Virus record (IMG/VR): IMGVR_UViG_3300044535_000907
Span: 1-21,745 of that record
Direction: 5' to 3' (one strand)
Length of the DNA: 21,745 nt
Origin: a virus
Shown here: positions 2,661-20,560 of the stretch, piece after piece
Position numbering within the stretch: the stretch's first letter is position 1
Layout: each line of letters opens with the position of its first letter
Translations under genes and position numbers: made by a program
Notes under the pieces: generated by a model
What the model saw: only the letters and a program-made list of their open reading frames with translations
Database searches by the model: none
What the model was told of the DNA's origin: nothing

Positions 2661-3194
2661 ATGTCACAAGATCAATACGAAGTAGGTCACCGTTGGATGT
2701 CAGCAAGACAATACAAATACACCAGTACAAAAGAGTACCACGATGCATTTCCATGTGCATATCGTCAGTGGCGGGCAGACAGTCATTGCAATTTGATTCA
2801 CGGCTATTCATTTTCAATGAAGTTCTACTTTGGAACAGACAACTTGGACGCACGTAACTGGGCTGCTGATTATGGCGGTCTCAAAGAACTCAAGTCAGTG
2901 TTGGAAAGCCAATTTGATCATACCCTGCTGGTGGCAGAAGACGATCCTGAACTGGAGTTCTACCAGGAAATGCAACGCCGTAATCTTGCTAAATTAACCA
3001 TCCTGCCTAAATTGGGCTGTGAAGGATTGGCAGATCAATTGTACCGGTATGTCAACGGTGTTTACATTCCTGACATGTGGGGTGCTGGAGAAGCCGAACG
3101 TCTTTGGTGCTATCGTGTAGAAGTACGTGAGACACAGGCTAACATGGCTTTCCGCGAAGGTCATAGAGAATGGAATGAGGACTTGTTTGCATGA
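2661..3194 (+). CDS. queD: 6-carboxy-tetrahydropterin synthase-like (QueD)
   Basis: QueD converts dihydroneopterin triphosphate to 6-carboxy-tetrahydropterin, the second step of preQ0 synthesis. The 177-residue product shows the fold's landmarks: a probable first zinc histidine (H27), catalytic-region cysteine C43 in SHCNLIHGY with H47, DYGGLKELK (E. coli has DFAELK), the FDHTLL Asp-His pair (D86, H87) and the late glutamate in VRETQAN. The usual HGH is HGY, so the third zinc ligand is replaced by Tyr49. I remember FRQWRA-SHC-HGY sequences as a distinct subgroup in alphaproteobacteria and phages, so this is probably a family variant rather than a broken gene. GGAGATAAAGC precedes the ATG. Its stop overlaps the next start (ATGA). 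Confidence 0.9.
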   Translation: MSQDQYEVGHRWMSARQYKYTSTKEYHDAFPCAYRQWRADSHCNLIHGYSFSMKFYFGTDNLDARNWAADYGGLKELKSVLESQFDHTLLVAEDDPELEFYQEMQRRNLAKLTILPKLGCEGLADQLYRYVNGVYIPDMWGAGEAERLWCYRVEVRETQANMAFREGHREWNEDLFA

Positions 3195-4036: not shown

Positions 4037-6043
4037 ATGACATATAAAATAGCCTTTGTTCAGCCCAACTTTCAACAAGGGCCAAAAGAATTCAACGCAT
4101 ACTACTTGCCTTATTCAGCAGGTGTAGTATGGAGTTATTCACTGCAGGATCCCTGGGTGCGTGATAATTTTTCAGTGACTGAGTGGATATGGCGTAGAGA
4201 TGCGTTAGAACCGTTGGCACAACGATTGGCGCAAAACAACATGGTCACGTTCAGTACATACGTGTGGAATCATCGCTACAATTATGCGCTGGCTCGACGT
4301 ATCAAGGAAATCAATCCCGGTGTGTTGACAGTGTTTGGTGGTCCCGAAGTAGCCATCACAGATCCTGATCTTTTTGTCAAAGAACCATTCATGGATCTGG
4401 TTATCTGTTATGAAGGCGAAATAACATTCAAGCGAGTGTTAGAACATTTTGAACAAGGCGACTGGGAGTCAGTGCCTGGACTGTTGATCAATCGCAACGG
4501 TGTTGCTGTAAAAACACAAGATGCCGAACGCATTGATACCTTGGACCAGGTACCCAGTCCGTATTTGTCGGGCATATTTGATCAAATGATTGCAGACCAT
4601 CCCGAAGTGACCTGGCAAGGTACTTTGGAAACCAATCGTGGTTGTCCTTATGCTTGCACCTTTTGCGACTGGGGTAGTTTGACCTACAACAAGGTTAAGA
4701 AATTTGAACTGGAACGTGTGTTTGCTGAACTAGAATGGATGGCTCGCCGCAACTTTGATTGGATCTCAATCACTGATGCCAACTTTGGTATGTATCCTGA
4801 ACGTGATGGCATGATAGCTGACAAAATTATTGAGATGCAGGAAAAGTTTGGCTCACCAAGAACATTCAGTGTAGCATGGGCCAAGAACCAAAAGAAAGAA
4901 GTGATCGACATTGTGAAAAAACTGTTGGATGCTCGGGGGTTTAACCAAGGTCTCACACTGAGTGTACAGAGTCTGGACCATGATGTGTTGGAAAACATTC
5001 GTCGCAAGAACATGGAAATGAACAAACTCAACGAAGTGTTTGAGCTGTGTGACCAACGCAATATTCCTGCATACACAGAATTGATCCTGGGCCTGCCTGG
5101 CGAAACACTTGAGACATGGAAGAAAAACTTCTATGCCTTGTACGAATTGAATCAGCACACTGGCATCACAACATTCCAAGCACAGTTGTTGGAAAATGCT
5201 GAAATGAACCTGTTGCAGAAAAAACTGTTCAAGATCACCAGCCAACCTGTGACAGATTACTTTGCTGGCAGCTATAGTGTGGAACACATTGAAGAAAGCA
5301 TTGACGTTATCACAGGCACCAAGGACATGCCCACTCCAGTGATGTTGGATGCACAGATCTTTAGTTGGTTCCAGACCACGTTTCATATCAACGGCTTTGC
5401 CACCTTGGTTGCACGTTTTATCCACAAGTATCTAGGTATTAGTTACAACGACTACTACGAAGAATTGTTTGCACACTTTATGACCAATGACTGGGTAAAG
5501 AAAGAAGAAGCAGAAGCTCGTATGTATTTCAACAACTGGATGATGACTGGCCGTATCAATCATCCCAAGATTGGCGTAGAAATTCATGGCTGGAACATTA
5601 TACATCGCACGTCCATGAACATGCACCAGGAAAATCAAGTTGAGCAACTGTATGATCATCTGGAACAGTTCCTAGAACGTTACAACTTGCCGGCCAATCT
5701 ACTGGCTAGCTTGATGAAACTGCAGAGAAGTTACTATATCAAATATGATGATAGAAATCAATATCCCATGAACCTGGAGTTGGACTTCAACATCTGGGAA
5801 TATTTAAGTTTCAATCGACCACTAACAGAAAATAAAACTGTGTACCGCTTGGACTTTCCTGAGGACAAGACCATGAGTTTCAATAGATTCTTGGAGTTGT
5901 TTTACTTTGCAAGGCGTAGAAACTTTGGTAAAGCCACAGTGGATCGCGTCAGTGGCGGAGACTCCAAAGGTGCACGCCGAGGTGCAGGTGCTGCCAAAGC
6001 ACAAGGCAGTTTTTCAGTAAAGAAAAAACAACTAGTGGCGTGA
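4037..6043 (+). CDS. radical SAM protein with B12-binding-like N-terminal domain
   Basis: The 668-residue protein has an N-terminal Rossmann-like region (residues 1-150, with VFGGPEVA and CYEGE) of the type fused to B12-dependent radical SAM enzymes, then the radical SAM core with the iron-sulfur motif C203-PYA-C207-TF-C210, then LGLPGE near residue 355 and a long C-terminal region of about 270 residues. Such enzymes use S-adenosylmethionine and a 4Fe-4S cluster for methylation or rearrangement at unreactive carbons. I see no DxHxxG cobalamin-ligand motif, so cobalamin may not bind, or may bind base-off without a protein ligand. The tail is Gly/Ala/Lys-rich (from about residue 640). ACAGG precedes the ATG. 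It overlaps the next gene as TGATG. Substrate unknown. Confidence 0.9.
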   Translation: MTYKIAFVQPNFQQGPKEFNAYYLPYSAGVVWSYSLQDPWVRDNFSVTEWIWRRDALEPLAQRLAQNNMVTFSTYVWNHRYNYALARRIKEINPGVLTVFGGPEVAITDPDLFVKEPFMDLVICYEGEITFKRVLEHFEQGDWESVPGLLINRNGVAVKTQDAERIDTLDQVPSPYLSGIFDQMIADHPEVTWQGTLETNRGCPYACTFCDWGSLTYNKVKKFELERVFAELEWMARRNFDWISITDANFGMYPERDGMIADKIIEMQEKFGSPRTFSVAWAKNQKKEVIDIVKKLLDARGFNQGLTLSVQSLDHDVLENIRRKNMEMNKLNEVFELCDQRNIPAYTELILGLPGETLETWKKNFYALYELNQHTGITTFQAQLLENAEMNLLQKKLFKITSQPVTDYFAGSYSVEHIEESIDVITGTKDMPTPVMLDAQIFSWFQTTFHINGFATLVARFIHKYLGISYNDYYEELFAHFMTNDWVKKEEAEARMYFNNWMMTGRINHPKIGVEIHGWNIIHRTSMNMHQENQVEQLYDHLEQFLERYNLPANLLASLMKLQRSYYIKYDDRNQYPMNLELDFNIWEYLSFNRPLTENKTVYRLDFPEDKTMSFNRFLELFYFARRRNFGKATVDRVSGGDSKGARRGAGAAKAQGSFSVKKKQLVA

Positions 6044-8008: not shown

Positions 8009-8485
8009 ATGATTTTTAATCACATCAAAGAACTCAAAGCCCAGGGCAAAAAGATTGGTATCACTTTCAGCACATTTGACATGCTACACGCTGGTCATAT
8101 TGCCATGCTGAGTGAGGCTCGAAATCATTGCGACTATTTGATCTGTGGCCTGCAAACTGACCCCACTATTGACAGACCTGAAACCAAAAACTCGCCAATA
8201 CAAAGCATTGTGGAACGACAGATCCAACTTGCGGCTTGTCGTTATGTGGATGAAGTTGTGGTTTACCAAACTGAACAAGACTTGGTGGACTTGTTGTTGA
8301 TCCTGCCTTTGGATGTTCGTATCCTTGGTGTGGAATACGAAGAGAAGAATTTCTCCGGCAGGGACGAATGCTATGATCGCGGTATTGATATTGTATTCAA
8401 CGGTCGTGATCATTCTTTCTCCAGTAGCAGCCTGCGCAGACGTGTGGTGGCAGCGGAAAGTCACAAAATACTGTCTACTCCATGA
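8009..8485 (+). CDS. cytidylyltransferase-like nucleotidyltransferase (TagD/RfaE-N type)
   Basis: The 158-residue product carries the nucleotidyltransferase signature TFSTFDMLHAGH (residues 19-30) with the HxGH ATP/CTP-binding motif at H27-H30, and the C-terminal SSSSLRRRV that corresponds to the ISTTxxR motif. GVEYEEKNFSGRD fits the glycerol-3-phosphate cytidylyltransferase pattern. The family joins CTP or ATP to a phosphorylated alcohol or sugar such as glycerol 3-phosphate, ethanolamine phosphate or a heptose phosphate. Full length for the family. The start directly follows the previous stop, and GGAG about 11 bases upstream may serve as ribosome binding site. Between two SGNH hydrolases and near a glycosyltransferase, it may supply an activated alditol or sugar; this is inference. 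Confidence 0.85.
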   Translation: MIFNHIKELKAQGKKIGITFSTFDMLHAGHIAMLSEARNHCDYLICGLQTDPTIDRPETKNSPIQSIVERQIQLAACRYVDEVVVYQTEQDLVDLLLILPLDVRILGVEYEEKNFSGRDECYDRGIDIVFNGRDHSFSSSSLRRRVVAAESHKILSTP

Positions 8486-17241: not shown

Positions 17242-19221
17242 ATGGTTCAACCACGCACCGCATTGCACAAAGTAATACCTATACAAACCACACAAGCACC
17301 TGATGTAAGGCCAGTGCTTGATAATGACCCACATGTCAAACTGGCTGAAATGTTTGTGGCCACCCCGCCACCCCTTGGTGTTCGAAAACAAAAAAATCTC
17401 ACAGAAGTTTTAACCACTTACGATATCACTAGAAAAAATCGTGTGGCCTTGATAGTGGCACCCGAGTGGACGCAACTATCTCCCCCTTACGGTATTGCAA
17501 GAATGACAGCCTTGAGTCGTAGCAGTGGATTTGCCACACGCACCTGGGATATCAATATCTTGACCATGCACGAAGCCGGTCATCCAGAATATTGGACTGC
17601 TTATGAAGATTGGAAGTGGCAGGATCCTCATTACAGCGAGCATGTGCATCCACTGATTGAACCAACCTTGCTCAAGTACATGGATCAAGTGTGCGAATGG
17701 GCACCCACTGTGATAGGATTCAGCACCTGGTACACCAACGATGCTTGCACGGTGTGGATGGCTCGGCAATTTCGTCAGCGCATACCCGGTGTTAAAATTA
17801 TATTTGGTGGTGCCAACGCCACGCAAATGAAAATCACAGACACCACCGTGGCCGACTACATTGTCAGTGGTGAAGGCGAATTGCTGTTTGTAAAGATATT
17901 GGAAAATTTAGAAAATCCAACAGAACAACTGCCACACATACTTACGCAAAGCAAAGATCAACGTGTGGATTTGGATTCGATGCCACCAGCAGACTACTCA
18001 GACCTTGATATTTCATTGTATGATTCTCAAGGCATCACCAGCGAGTTCAGCCGTGGATGTATTGCCAACTGTGTGTATTGCAATGAAACTATCTTTTGGA
18101 AGTTTAGAGCCAGACAAAATCATCGTGTGTTGGACGAAATTGAAATTGTATATCGCCAGCAAGGTATTAGAAGTGTGCAGTTTATTGACAGCTTGCTCAA
18201 CGGCAACTTGAAAGAACTTCGAGAATTCGCCGAAGGCTTGATTGAAAGAAAAATACGAGTAAGCTGGGGTGGGTACTCTCGTATAGATGGCAAAATGGAT
18301 CAGGACTTTTGGGCACTGTTGCAAAAGAGCGGAGCATCAGGATTTGCATTTGGTGTAGAGTCTGGTTCACAAAAGGTGTTAGACTTGATGAAAAAGAACT
18401 GTCAAGTGCCTTGGATAGAACAAAATTTTCAAGACTTGTCCAATATTGGACTGAACAACAACTTTGCCACTTGGTTCACAGGATTCCCTGGAGAAGAACT
18501 TACTGATGTAGCACAGACCATGACCTTGATGTGGCGATTGCGTAATTCAGGCATGGGCGGCCAAAGCTCAGGCACTTGCGGGCTTGGACATGGCACTCCA
18601 CTAGACTTAGAACGCGAACGATTTGGTGTGGCCACTGCTGATTGGAGCTGGGGATGGGCCACACAGGACATGCGCAACACAGTATTTCACAGATTCATGC
18701 GATTCAAGTTTACCAACATATTGCTGGAACAATTTAGATTGCACCGCACTGTTAGATCATACGAACAGCACCATCAGTACCCTGATTTAAAAAATCAATA
18801 CAGCATACAATATGATCCTACCAACTGGGCTGACCCTATACCTTGGGAAAAGGACTTTGATTATGAAATTATCAAAGAAGATATCAATCCTGTGGTCAAC
18901 ACGTTGATAAATGAACCTTGGCCTTTGTTGCGAGTACTTTGGCTGGCCATGGGAGCCTTTAAATTGCATGTGGAATTTGAGCCTGAACGTGATCTCAAGG
19001 AGTTTGGATACGTGCGTTATCCACGTGGTGGCGAACACAGACTTTGGGGCACATATGATTTTGACATTGATTCTTCTGGCAACTGGTCAGCCAATTTTGA
19101 TACTCGATTGCAAGCTGATCCTTACAACAATCAGCCCATGGATTTCCACCACGTGTACAACGGCTCTGGGCATTGGTCACGTCCTTTAGAGCAACCTGCT
19201 CTAGCTGAGATCAAGGGCTAA
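17242..19221 (+). CDS. second radical SAM protein with B12-binding-like N-terminal domain
   Basis: The 659-residue product has an N-terminal extension (about 65 residues, basic and Pro-rich), a Rossmann-like region from VALIVAPEWTQLSPPYG (residue 68 on) to IIFGGANAT and SGEGE, and a radical SAM core with the motif C273-IAN-C277-VY-C280 followed by FAFGVESGSQKVLDLMKK and WFTGFPGEE. The last 180 residues are a separate domain with many Trp and Tyr and GEHRLWGTYDFDI. As in the protein at 4037, no DxHxxG cobalamin-ligand motif is seen. The two differ greatly in sequence and C-terminal domain, so they are not recent copies. No Shine-Dalgarno sequence precedes ATG 17242; a later start is possible. 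Substrate unknown. Confidence 0.9.
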   Translation: MVQPRTALHKVIPIQTTQAPDVRPVLDNDPHVKLAEMFVATPPPLGVRKQKNLTEVLTTYDITRKNRVALIVAPEWTQLSPPYGIARMTALSRSSGFATRTWDINILTMHEAGHPEYWTAYEDWKWQDPHYSEHVHPLIEPTLLKYMDQVCEWAPTVIGFSTWYTNDACTVWMARQFRQRIPGVKIIFGGANATQMKITDTTVADYIVSGEGELLFVKILENLENPTEQLPHILTQSKDQRVDLDSMPPADYSDLDISLYDSQGITSEFSRGCIANCVYCNETIFWKFRARQNHRVLDEIEIVYRQQGIRSVQFIDSLLNGNLKELREFAEGLIERKIRVSWGGYSRIDGKMDQDFWALLQKSGASGFAFGVESGSQKVLDLMKKNCQVPWIEQNFQDLSNIGLNNNFATWFTGFPGEELTDVAQTMTLMWRLRNSGMGGQSSGTCGLGHGTPLDLERERFGVATADWSWGWATQDMRNTVFHRFMRFKFTNILLEQFRLHRTVRSYEQHHQYPDLKNQYSIQYDPTNWADPIPWEKDFDYEIIKEDINPVVNTLINEPWPLLRVLWLAMGAFKLHVEFEPERDLKEFGYVRYPRGGEHRLWGTYDFDIDSSGNWSANFDTRLQADPYNNQPMDFHHVYNGSGHWSRPLEQPALAEIKG

Positions 19222-19387: not shown

Positions 19388-19416
19388 TTGACAATAAATA
19401 AAAATCCTGTTACAAT
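19388..19416 (+). promoter_or_regulatory. sigma70 promoter of the tRNA cluster
   Basis: Consensus TTGACA (19388-19393), 17-base spacer and TACAAT (19411-19416), with an expected start at about 19423, two bases before the first tRNA. AATAAATA at 19393-19400 also fits the late-element NATAAATA, but chance matches of that length are expected here. Confidence 0.82.
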
Positions 19417-19424
19417 AGAACAAC

Positions 19425-19512
19425 GCAACGGACGCCGTATTGGTTGCAGGCCCTCGACTCATAATCGAGTGACGAAAGTCCACTGTGGGTTCAAATCCCT
19501 CCCGTTGCACCA
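19425..19512 (+). tRNA. class II tRNA with CAU anticodon (identity unclear: Ile2, Met or Ser/Leu body)
   Basis: The 88-base cloverleaf has a perfect 7-bp acceptor stem (GCAACGG/CCGTTGC), discriminator A and encoded CCA. The D stem is GCC/GGC around a GG-containing loop, the anticodon stem CTCGA/TCGAG with loop CTCATAA (anticodon CAT at 19460-19462), and the T arm carries TTCAAAT with one T-T mismatch in its stem. Between anticodon and T stems are 15 bases, GAC-GAAA-GTC forming a small variable arm, so this is a class II tRNA. The anticodon stem-loop core resembles E. coli tRNA-Ile2 (lysidine at C34), while the D arm resembles tRNA-Ser. First gene of the cluster. Confidence 0.85.
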
Positions 19513-19515
19513 ATT

Positions 19516-19590
19516 CTGGCGTTAGTATAATGGATAATACAAAGAGCTTCTACCTCTTGAATGTGGGTTCGATTCCTGCACGCCGGACCA
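19516..19590 (+). tRNA. tRNA-Arg (UCU)
   Basis: A 75-base cloverleaf: acceptor CTGGCGT/ACGCCGG (with a U-G pair at position 2), discriminator A, encoded CCA, D stem GTAT/ATAC, anticodon stem AAGAG/CTCTT with loop CTTCTAC (anticodon TCT at 19549-19551), T loop TTCGATT. It reads AGA (and AGG by wobble). Three bases separate it from the preceding tRNA. Confidence 0.93.
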
Positions 19591-19604: not shown

Positions 19605-19690
19605 GCCAGAGTGGAGAAATGGTATACTCTGCAGATTTAAAATCTGCCGTCCGCAAGGGCATACGGGTTCGAGTCCCGTCTCTGGTACCA
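19605..19690 (+). tRNA. tRNA-Leu (UAA)
   Basis: An 86-base class II tRNA: acceptor GCCAGAG/CTCTGGT (first pair G-U), discriminator A, encoded CCA, anticodon stem GCAGA/TCTGC with loop TTTAAAA (anticodon TAA at 19638-19640), a normal long variable arm and T loop TTCGAGT. It reads TTA and TTG. It lies 11 bases before the start of the next protein gene, whose ribosome binding site overlaps the tRNA's 3' end. Confidence 0.94.
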
Positions 19691-19701
19691 AAGGAACTGC
19701 A

Positions 19702-20181
19702 ATGAGCGATCCCATAATTGAACCACATCATGAGAGCGAAGGCACTGACGACGACTTCTTTGATGACATCAGAGGCCGGTGGGCCCAAATGGAGGCTGAA
19801 CGTCGAGAGAGTGACGAGTTCAAAGTCAACAACATGGAATACGACATGAGCCAGGCAGACTGGTTCCTGAGCCGGGTGCGTGGCAGTGACAACTATGCGC
19901 AGAACTTGTATGCTGCCTTGTGCAACAACCAGTTTCAAAAGCAAGATGTGTGGTTGGTGTTGAAGGATCAACACTGGAGTTGTTCATGGCGTTATGCCGG
20001 TGGTGTTGTGGCTGACTTTCAAGGCCAAGGTGGCAACTACATGGATTGGTACTGCTCAGGCATTGGTCCCAAGGACGACACTGAGTTTGTGGGCGAAGGC
20101 ACAGTCACCGATGAAATTCGTGCAGATTTGGCACTTCTGGGTTGGCGTGTGATTGAAGAGCCTGACAGTGAAGACGTGTAA
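19702..20181 (+). CDS. hypothetical phage protein, 159 aa
   Basis: The start is ATG 19702, after AAAGGA overlapping the end of tRNA-Leu; the frame is open back to 19561 only because it runs through the tRNA genes. Residues 1-50 are acidic and disordered-looking. Residues 50-150 form a globular domain: YAQNLYAALCNNQFQKQDVW, HWSCSWRYAGGVVADFQGQGG and DEIRADLALLGWRVIEE. This central domain resembles an uncharacterised phage protein I remember from T4-like marine phages. It is sandwiched between the tRNA cluster and the tmRNA gene and probably shares their transcript. Confidence 0.83.
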   Translation: MSDPIIEPHHESEGTDDDFFDDIRGRWAQMEAERRESDEFKVNNMEYDMSQADWFLSRVRGSDNYAQNLYAALCNNQFQKQDVWLVLKDQHWSCSWRYAGGVVADFQGQGGNYMDWYCSGIGPKDDTEFVGEGTVTDEIRADLALLGWRVIEEPDSEDV

Positions 20182-20189
20182 ATAAGAGT

Positions 20190-20254
20190 TATTGCTGTAT
20201 GAAGCAGATAAAAATGGATTCAAGACGGGGGTGCGAATCCCCCCAGGTCCACCA
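20190..20254 (+). ncRNA. tmRNA acceptor piece
   Basis: Mature 3' fragment with the T arm (GGGGG 20227-20231, loop TGCGAAT, CCCCC 20239-20243), acceptor 3' strand CAGGTCC (20244-20250), A73 and encoded CCA. A small hairpin TGCT/AGCA (20193-20206) lies near its 5' end. TTCAA (20219-20223) can pair with TTGAA (20408-20412) in the coding half as part of the long P2 helix. The 5' boundary is uncertain. The T loop has G where the usual second T stands. Confidence 0.82.
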
Positions 20255-20260
20255 ATAAAG

Positions 20261-20374
20261 ATGATTATGAATTATACCCAAACATTAAAATTAACCGGAA
20301 GTCTAATTGGTGCCTATGTTGTTTACAAGATAGGTCTCGAAGTTTGGTGTATTGTTTATGGACTGCTTTATTGA
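20261..20374 (+). CDS. 37-aa hydrophobic ORF inside the tmRNA spacer
   Basis: The ORF begins 6 bases after the CCA of the acceptor piece and its TGA ends one base before the first G of the coding piece, so it fills the segment that processing would remove. An alternative ATG is at 20267, with AAAG 6 bases upstream. The product MIMNYTQTLKLTGSLIGAYV continues with VYKIGLEVWCIVYGLLY; residues 11-37 could form one membrane helix. A 37-codon open frame can arise by chance (roughly one time in six for a given frame), so translation is unproven. If real, it could be made only from the unprocessed precursor. Confidence 0.42.
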   Translation: MIMNYTQTLKLTGSLIGAYVVYKIGLEVWCIVYGLLY

Positions 20375-20375
20375 T

Positions 20376-20537
20376 GGGCCTGAATAGTATCGATTGGGTC
20401 AGGAGTATTGAAGTGGACAGCACGGTAGGCGATGACCGTTAATCAAGCAAAAAAAGTAAACGCAAACGACTCACAGTTCGCATTGGCCGCGTGAAAACAC
20501 TGCCTAGGGTAAGACATACCTCGTAACAGAAACTCAG
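20376..20537 (+). ncRNA. tmRNA coding piece
   Basis: Starts with the acceptor 5' strand GGGCCTG and a D-loop-like TATCGATTGGG (compare GGATTCGACGGG in E. coli tmRNA). ACGGT/ACCGT (20422-20439) may form part of the first pseudoknot. The tag frame follows a GTAAAC sequence and resumes at GCA (20462). After the stop, AAACACTGCCTAGGGT resembles the E. coli segment GCCCTGCCTGGGGT. GGTA/TACC (20508-20520) is a small hairpin before the terminator. The 3' end is approximate. Confidence 0.85.
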
Positions 20538-20560
20538 AACCCGCTTCGGCGGGTTTCTCT
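20538..20560 (+). terminator. rho-independent terminator after the tmRNA gene
   Basis: Perfect 7-bp stem AACCCGC/GCGGGTT closed by a TTCG tetraloop (20545-20548), followed by TCTCTT. The T tract is interrupted, so efficiency is uncertain. It ends 14 bases before the alpha/beta hydrolase start. Confidence 0.8.

Follow-up and report, generated by a model that had tools for sequence, protein, structure and literature searches.

The closest described counterpart of the tRNA considered here is the class I bacterial tRNA-Ile2, with a CAU anticodon modified to lysidine (k2CAU). In E. coli, isoleucine identity resides in A73, the lysidine-containing anticodon, t6A37 and minor stem pairs; A14 is a major determinant for LeuRS, and the U8:A14 pair matters for the A. 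aeolicus enzyme (PMC9976931). The TilS orthologues differ in their determinants: that of E. coli needs C4:G69 and C5:G68, and that of B. cenocepacia, studied with its own Ile2 as substrate, requires G3:C70 together with its own type of D loop (PMC12514573). Group I introns are found in the Ile2 genes of Burkholderia and Acidovorax (PMC8450103). A long variable arm is taken to mark a tRNA as specific for Leu, Ser, Tyr or Sec, and annotation relies on this feature. Nematode nev-tRNAs have a class II body but the anticodon of a class I isotype, Ile(UAU) among them (PMC4300185), and bacterial allo-tRNAs combine long variable arms with non-Ser anticodons (PMC7609411). No report of a class II tRNA-Ile2 was found in the openly accessible literature searched, and the gene described below is taken as a variant form of tRNA-Ile2, of which a prior mention is possible.

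The window analysed is a whole virus record of 21,745 bases (G000), which carries an 88-nt tRNA gene with anticodon CAU and an encoded CCA end (Table 1). The sequence-only reading had described a class II tRNA with a 15-base variable region containing a GAC/GTC stem. ARAGORN called the gene with exactly these bounds under the label tRNA-Met(cat), RF00005 matched 19425-19509 (41.9 bits, cut-off 29) with the inserted bases placed in the variable region, and the MFE fold of the strand contained acceptor, D, anticodon, variable (3-bp GAC/GTC stem, GAAA loop) and T arms, so the class II body stood up to the covariance-model check which that reading had proposed. The acceptor stem is GCAACGG/CCGTTGC, the T arm is GTGGGTTCAAATCCCTC and the variable region is TGACGAAAGTCCACT, its 15 nt with a covarying stem standing in place of the 4-5 nt loop of a class I body. 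The 7-nt anticodon loop CTCATAA (19458-19464), with A37, and the discriminator A73 are those of a tRNA-Ile2; the core CGACTCATAATCG, which had been likened to this isotype, is present, and in the reference set the anticodon arm is nearest to that of Burkholderia class I Ile2 (0.88). The D arm does resemble host tRNA-Ser, as had been noted, and the T arm is also close to it. In the D arm core, the usual U8, A14 and A21 give way to A8, U14 and a C (gene position 23). An 8-bp acceptor stem of the allo-tRNA kind was ruled out because A8 cannot pair with C65.

Table 1. Coordinates of the tRNA gene, its parts and other features of the window.
Feature	Position	Strand	Evidence or remark
PTPS/QueD-like protein	2661-3194		
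B12-binding radical-SAM protein, first	4037-6043		
Cytidylyltransferase-like protein	8009-8485		
B12-binding radical-SAM protein, second	17242-19221		
Sigma-70 type promoter TTGACA-17-TACAAT, ahead of tRNA cluster	19388-19416	+	11/12 consensus matches
Class II tRNA gene, anticodon CAU, read as tRNA-Ile2	19425-19512	+	ARAGORN; RF00005, 41.9 bits; model R1, 105.3 bits; MFE cloverleaf
D arm GCCG-TATTGGTTGC-AGGC, tRNA-Ser-like	19434-19451	+	A8/U14/C23 in 50/50 family members
Anticodon arm CTCGA-CTCATAA-TCGAG (CAU at 19460-19462)	19453-19469	+	ARAGORN
Variable region: 1 nt, 3-bp stem GAC/GTC, GAAA loop, 4 nt (CACT)	19470-19484	+	Stem covariation
T arm GTGGG-TTCAAAT-CCCTC, one U.U mismatch	19485-19501	+	Sequence
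A73 (19509) and encoded CCA	19509-19512	+	A73 in 50/50 members
tRNA-Arg(UCU), next cluster gene	19516-19590	+	ARAGORN, RF00005; identical in L674
tRNA-Leu(UAA), third cluster gene	19605-19690	+	ARAGORN, RF00005; identical in L671
Permuted tmRNA, betaproteobacterial type	20148-20560	+	RF04321, 121 bits; RF01850, 108 bits

Phages, Burkholderiaceae genomes and plasmids together yielded 50 distinct relatives, of which 48 measure 88 nt. All 50 share CAU, A8, U14, C23 (gene position) and the A73 reported earlier for the window copy, the constancy of the D arm partly reflecting how members were searched and that of CAU being given by construction in most searches. When viral contigs were searched with a D-arm pattern that left the anticodon free, 32 stretches were found, in which every intact tRNA had CAU. 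A search for the CTCATAATC loop followed by a long gap and the T arm returned 29 viral stretches, most of them sharing the body ACGCCGT(R)(Y)TGGTTGCAGGC; the same body occurred in 117 stretches of genome contigs, and among the titles listed for these all were Burkholderiaceae or Burkholderiales (Paraburkholderia, Ralstonia, Cupriavidus, Trinickia and others).

Among 25 aligned members, standard pairs filled 99% of pair cells, and the three pairs of the variable stem all changed on both sides, with 98.6% pairing and up to four pair types; the T-stem pair at the U.U site was broken in five. Because of these two-sided changes, the long variable arm is, on comparative grounds, a real helix. Its geometry in the family (1 nt, 3 bp, 4-nt loop, 4 nt) differs from that of host Ser, Leu and Tyr arms. 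The family covariance model R1, built in part from the window copy, scored the window at 105.3 bits vs 60-78 for the nearest other class II tRNAs. Since 50 relatives share the body, the variable stem covaries and the R1 score is high, a chance origin of the class II body can be regarded as excluded on this comparison; the tRNA gene is neither isolated nor damaged but belongs to a conserved family. The consensus fold also contained a longer D stem, formed through G13-C and U14.G with a bulged A, which was the MFE structure in 15 of 48 single folds and whose two added pairs never vary in the family; such a stem could explain the loss of U8:A14.

Other genes of related kind were met in the course of these searches. 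Seven phage loci (L014, L018, L021, L032, L035, L036 and L037) encode class II CAU tRNAs with quite different bodies, and for this reason the combination of class II body and CAU probably arose more than once. Prophage-like contigs (L009, L011/L442, L020, L027 and L029) hold either the 3' part of the tRNA alone or a complete gene with the same sequence as in bacteria, a pattern that suggests integration at the class II Ile2 gene. Two UAU tRNAs of 91-92 nt, located near Leu(UAA) at L016:10039-10129 and L445:1238-1329 in phages that also have a class II CAU tRNA, are possible class II Ile(UAU) genes.

The surroundings of the gene were compared in 17 loci related to the radical-SAM protein encoded just upstream of the window tRNA. 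In 14 of them (L664-L667 and L669-L678) a radical-SAM gene is followed by a CAU tRNA, tRNA-Arg(UCU) and tRNA-Leu(UAA), and here the CAU tRNA is of class I, 73-77 nt long and mostly with clear Ile2 features (a typical one reads GGGCCGTTAGCTCATT...GGACTCATAATCC...). The stretch 19388-19417 of the window, which contains the promoter-like element, is kept at 94-97% over 30-31 nt before the same slot in the syntenic phages, among which the sequence behind the slot is also conserved. As judged by this comparison, the window's class II gene replaces the ordinary class I tRNA-Ile2 of the slot in related phages, and this swap is the strongest single evidence for its function.

A second line of evidence came from 150 Burkholderiaceae genomes, 28 of which carry the class II gene. 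A loose class I pattern (TCATAAT type), which picks up the elongator tRNA-Met plus, usually, class I Ile2, gave one match only in 24 of the 28 carriers, identical to the elongator Met sequence wherever listed, vs two or more matches in 94 of the 122 non-carriers (Fisher p = 8.5e-10, a value that overstates independence, as the genomes are related). The class II gene thus largely excludes class I Ile2 in this set. A diverged class II gene hidden in the one-hit non-carriers was ruled out by R1, which gave at most 65.5 bits in 20 one-hit genomes with no class II match vs 109-111 for true members. An intron-split class I Ile2 hidden in carriers was likewise rejected with RF00028, a model of incomplete sensitivity that misses some split Ile2: none was found in 31 carriers (10 + 21), where its five matches all lay in tRNA-Leu(UAA), and intron-split Ile2 genes were detected in several non-carriers.

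Some Cupriavidus genomes depart from this pattern. C. pinatubonensis G003 has a class I Ile2 of the Cupriavidus type (T arm GTGTTC) on the chromosome and the class II gene on a plasmid, and the second match of two further Cupriavidus carriers (G009 and G337) is the same class I form; in these three genomes the class II gene supplements a class I Ile2. Plasmid-borne class II Ile2 genes were also observed in Cupriavidus at L178, L249, L250 and L681, the last on the C. necator H16 megaplasmid pHG1. In Ralstonia G001, CAU is confined to fMet, elongator Met and the class II tRNA, the Ile tRNAs have GAU only, and no Ile-UAU tRNA was found in a near-complete census of this draft genome (tRNA-Tyr, for example, was not found either). 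There the class II tRNA is the sole candidate reader of AUA, which is not the case in Cupriavidus G003. Each of the 13 genomes examined for TilS, including nine carriers, has the gene. It appears that many Burkholderia-related bacteria have no AUA reader other than this class II tRNA.

The phage itself encodes radical-SAM, PTPS and 5'-3' exonuclease proteins, and viral relatives of the first radical-SAM protein number at least 216, almost none of them in named phages. ARAGORN, when run on the window, did not call the tmRNA listed in Table 1, the tag of which likely reads AKKVNANDSQFALAA. Because this tmRNA is permuted and of betaproteobacterial type, the host is likely betaproteobacterial.

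With respect to codon use, the 33 window ORFs contain 11.6 AUA, 9.3 AGA and 8.1 UUA per thousand codons vs 1.95, 1.98 and 1.09, respectively, in long ORFs of the Burkholderiaceae loci; a value of 0.6 per thousand is given for AUA in B. cenocepacia (PMC10128029). The three tRNAs of the cluster match AUA, AGA and UUA. In 1066 alignments with related viral loci, the non-AUA codons of homologues at phage AUA sites were those for Ile (62%), Val (23%), Leu (6.7%) and Met (1.9%); AUA sites behaved like AUU and AUC, and AUG differed. Since this profile resembles that of AUU/AUC and is unlike that of AUG, the alignments indicate that AUA means isoleucine in the phage. A reassignment of AUA was rejected because the codon alignment favours Ile/Val. 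The same alignment tells against the other option raised by the sequence-only reading, a chimera that places another amino acid at AUG or AUA, and no other isotype fits better.

These results make it very probable that the gene is a class II-bodied tRNA-Ile2 that reads AUA as isoleucine after lysidine modification of C34. A divergent Ile2 of this kind had been suggested from the outset, and it is now the best supported reading by virtue of the slot and of the stand-in for class I Ile2 in Burkholderiaceae, except that the gene is no stray form but belongs to a conserved family. From the above we infer the following course of events: the tRNA would be transcribed from its own sigma-70 promoter together with tRNA-Arg(UCU) and tRNA-Leu(UAA), TilS of the presumed host would convert C34 to lysidine, and host IleRS would charge the modified tRNA with isoleucine, allowing it to read AUA. 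The cluster would in this manner supply readers for AUA, AGA and UUA, codons that the phage uses often and GC-rich Burkholderiaceae seldom use.

The weakest point of the Ile2 reading is the fit of the window copy to a TilS. In the family, C4:G69 is present in 45/50 and C5:G68 in 42/50 members, most having GGGCC or a near form, and for the anticodon and acceptor arms of the class II tRNA of Ralstonia, the nearest sequences are class I Ile2 genes. The window copy has A3:U70, A4:U69 and C5:G68, that is, neither C4:G69 nor G3:C70. Either TilS or IleRS could also work less well on a tRNA with the long arm, A8/U14/C23 and the T-stem mismatch. The lack of both pairs would suit a tRNA in which C34 stays unmodified and MetRS, whose main determinant is CAU, charges it as an extra elongator tRNA-Met for AUG, in keeping with the ARAGORN label and with the finding that unmodified Ile2 can be methionylated (PMC9976931). 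We nevertheless consider such a role improbable, as it is class I Ile2 genes that are replaced in the slot, and carriers already keep a separate elongator Met with an A32 loop (ATCATAA), plus fMet, and would be left with no AUA reader in cases such as Ralstonia. The elongator Met signature (ATCATAA, GGCGAATTAGCTCAG...) is absent from the window tRNA, which has a different body and C32. Also, several phages with the class II tRNA encode other CAU tRNAs, among them phage L440, whose roughly 20 tRNAs comprise CAU tRNAs of fMet type and of elongator type besides the class II one. The anticodon-based tRNA-Met label was rejected on the slot and the tRNA census.

A long variable arm together with A73 could instead direct leucine charging and the insertion of Leu at AUA or AUG, as is conceivable from the class II nev-tRNA-Ile(UAU), which takes leucine in vitro (PMC4300185); whole-gene identity of the window tRNA is indeed highest against Leu tRNAs, yet only 0.69. 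This is, if anything, still less probable than methionine charging: the LeuRS determinants A14 and U8:A14 (PMC9976931) are replaced by U14 and A8 in 50/50 members, and Leu makes up 6.7% of the replacements at AUA sites vs 11.5% at AUU sites.

Phage tRNAs can counter tRNA-cutting defences, and odd bodies recur in phage tRNA-Lys genes, features that would agree with a tRNA that has no role in translation and instead diverts host anticodon nucleases or other defences of this type, as a decoy or spare target. To this we assign a very slight probability, because Ralstonia has this tRNA on the chromosome, apparently as its sole Ile2, the phage uses AUA often, and the adjacent tRNAs likewise correspond to codons rare in the host. 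Finally, an anticodon-changed serine tRNA, charged by SerRS through its long arm and mistranslating AUG or AUA, would account for the tRNA-Ser-like D and T arms but is scarcely credible given A73 vs the G73 of all host tRNA-Ser, an arm of 15 nt vs 18-22 nt, the four unpaired nt ahead of the T stem, and conservation in the chromosomes of many species, which speaks against a mistranslator.

As ARAGORN gives such genes the label tRNA-Met, the annotation of AUA readers may be wrong in many genomes. A class II Ile2 without U8:A14 that seems to perform an essential decoding task would allow one to test substrate choice by TilS and IleRS, as well as exclusion of SerRS and LeuRS, and the in-place class I/class II exchange between related phages constitutes a natural experiment on tRNA replacement.

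Among other unusual tRNAs, phage class II tRNA-Lys (RcXuper, LR745206, Kikimora) resemble the family; they have the same geometry (1 nt, 3 bp, GAAA loop, CAYC), the nearest R1 scores outside the family (60-78 bits) and a CTCTTAATC only one base apart from the CTCATAATC of the Ile2 family, but differ in their Lys anticodon, another D arm and U8 vs A8. Class II tRNA-Lys genes (UUU or CUU, 82-94 nt) are widespread in phages (L004:1290-1555, L005:1470-1557, L006:1469-1555, L038-L152); 115 viral stretches yielded 98 distinct class II Lys or CAU sequences, nearly all Lys. Several of them share the arm GACGAAAGTCCAYC with the Ile2 family, and many have U73. Tentatively, and with somewhat more doubt than confidence, we propose that a class II lineage (1 nt, 3 bp, tetraloop, 4 nt) took over AUA-Ile decoding in Ralstonia, Paraburkholderia, Trinickia and phages; its Ile2 branch would have a reorganised core devoid of U8:A14. 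A shift of one anticodon base would link the lineage to the widespread phage class II tRNA-Lys genes, and it would have spread by phage and plasmid transfer between hosts, with in-place replacement of class I genes. On this proposal, a housekeeping tRNA would break the rule that a class II body in bacteria signifies Leu, Ser, Tyr or Sec.

The nematode nev-tRNAs are alike in principle but are eukaryotic, have UAU rather than a lysidine-dependent CAU and are leucine-charged in vitro (PMC4300185). The allo-tRNAs differ by their 8/4 or 9/3 bp acceptor/T stems vs 7/5 in the window tRNA. With class I bacterial tRNA-Ile2, the window tRNA has in common the CTCATAA loop, a CGACTCATAATCG-type arm, A73, C5:G68, the slot in syntenic phages and apparently the role in Burkholderiaceae, and it differs in its 88-nt class II body with a covarying arm, A8/U14/C23 and the tRNA-Ser-like D arm. 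The Burkholderia-type class I Ile2 has 77 nt, a 5-nt variable loop and another D arm but shares with the bacterial class II genes an identical acceptor stem (GGGCCGG/CCGGCCC), a nearly identical T arm, A8 and an extendable D stem; the match in acceptor stem, T arm and A8 suggests common descent of parts of the two forms.
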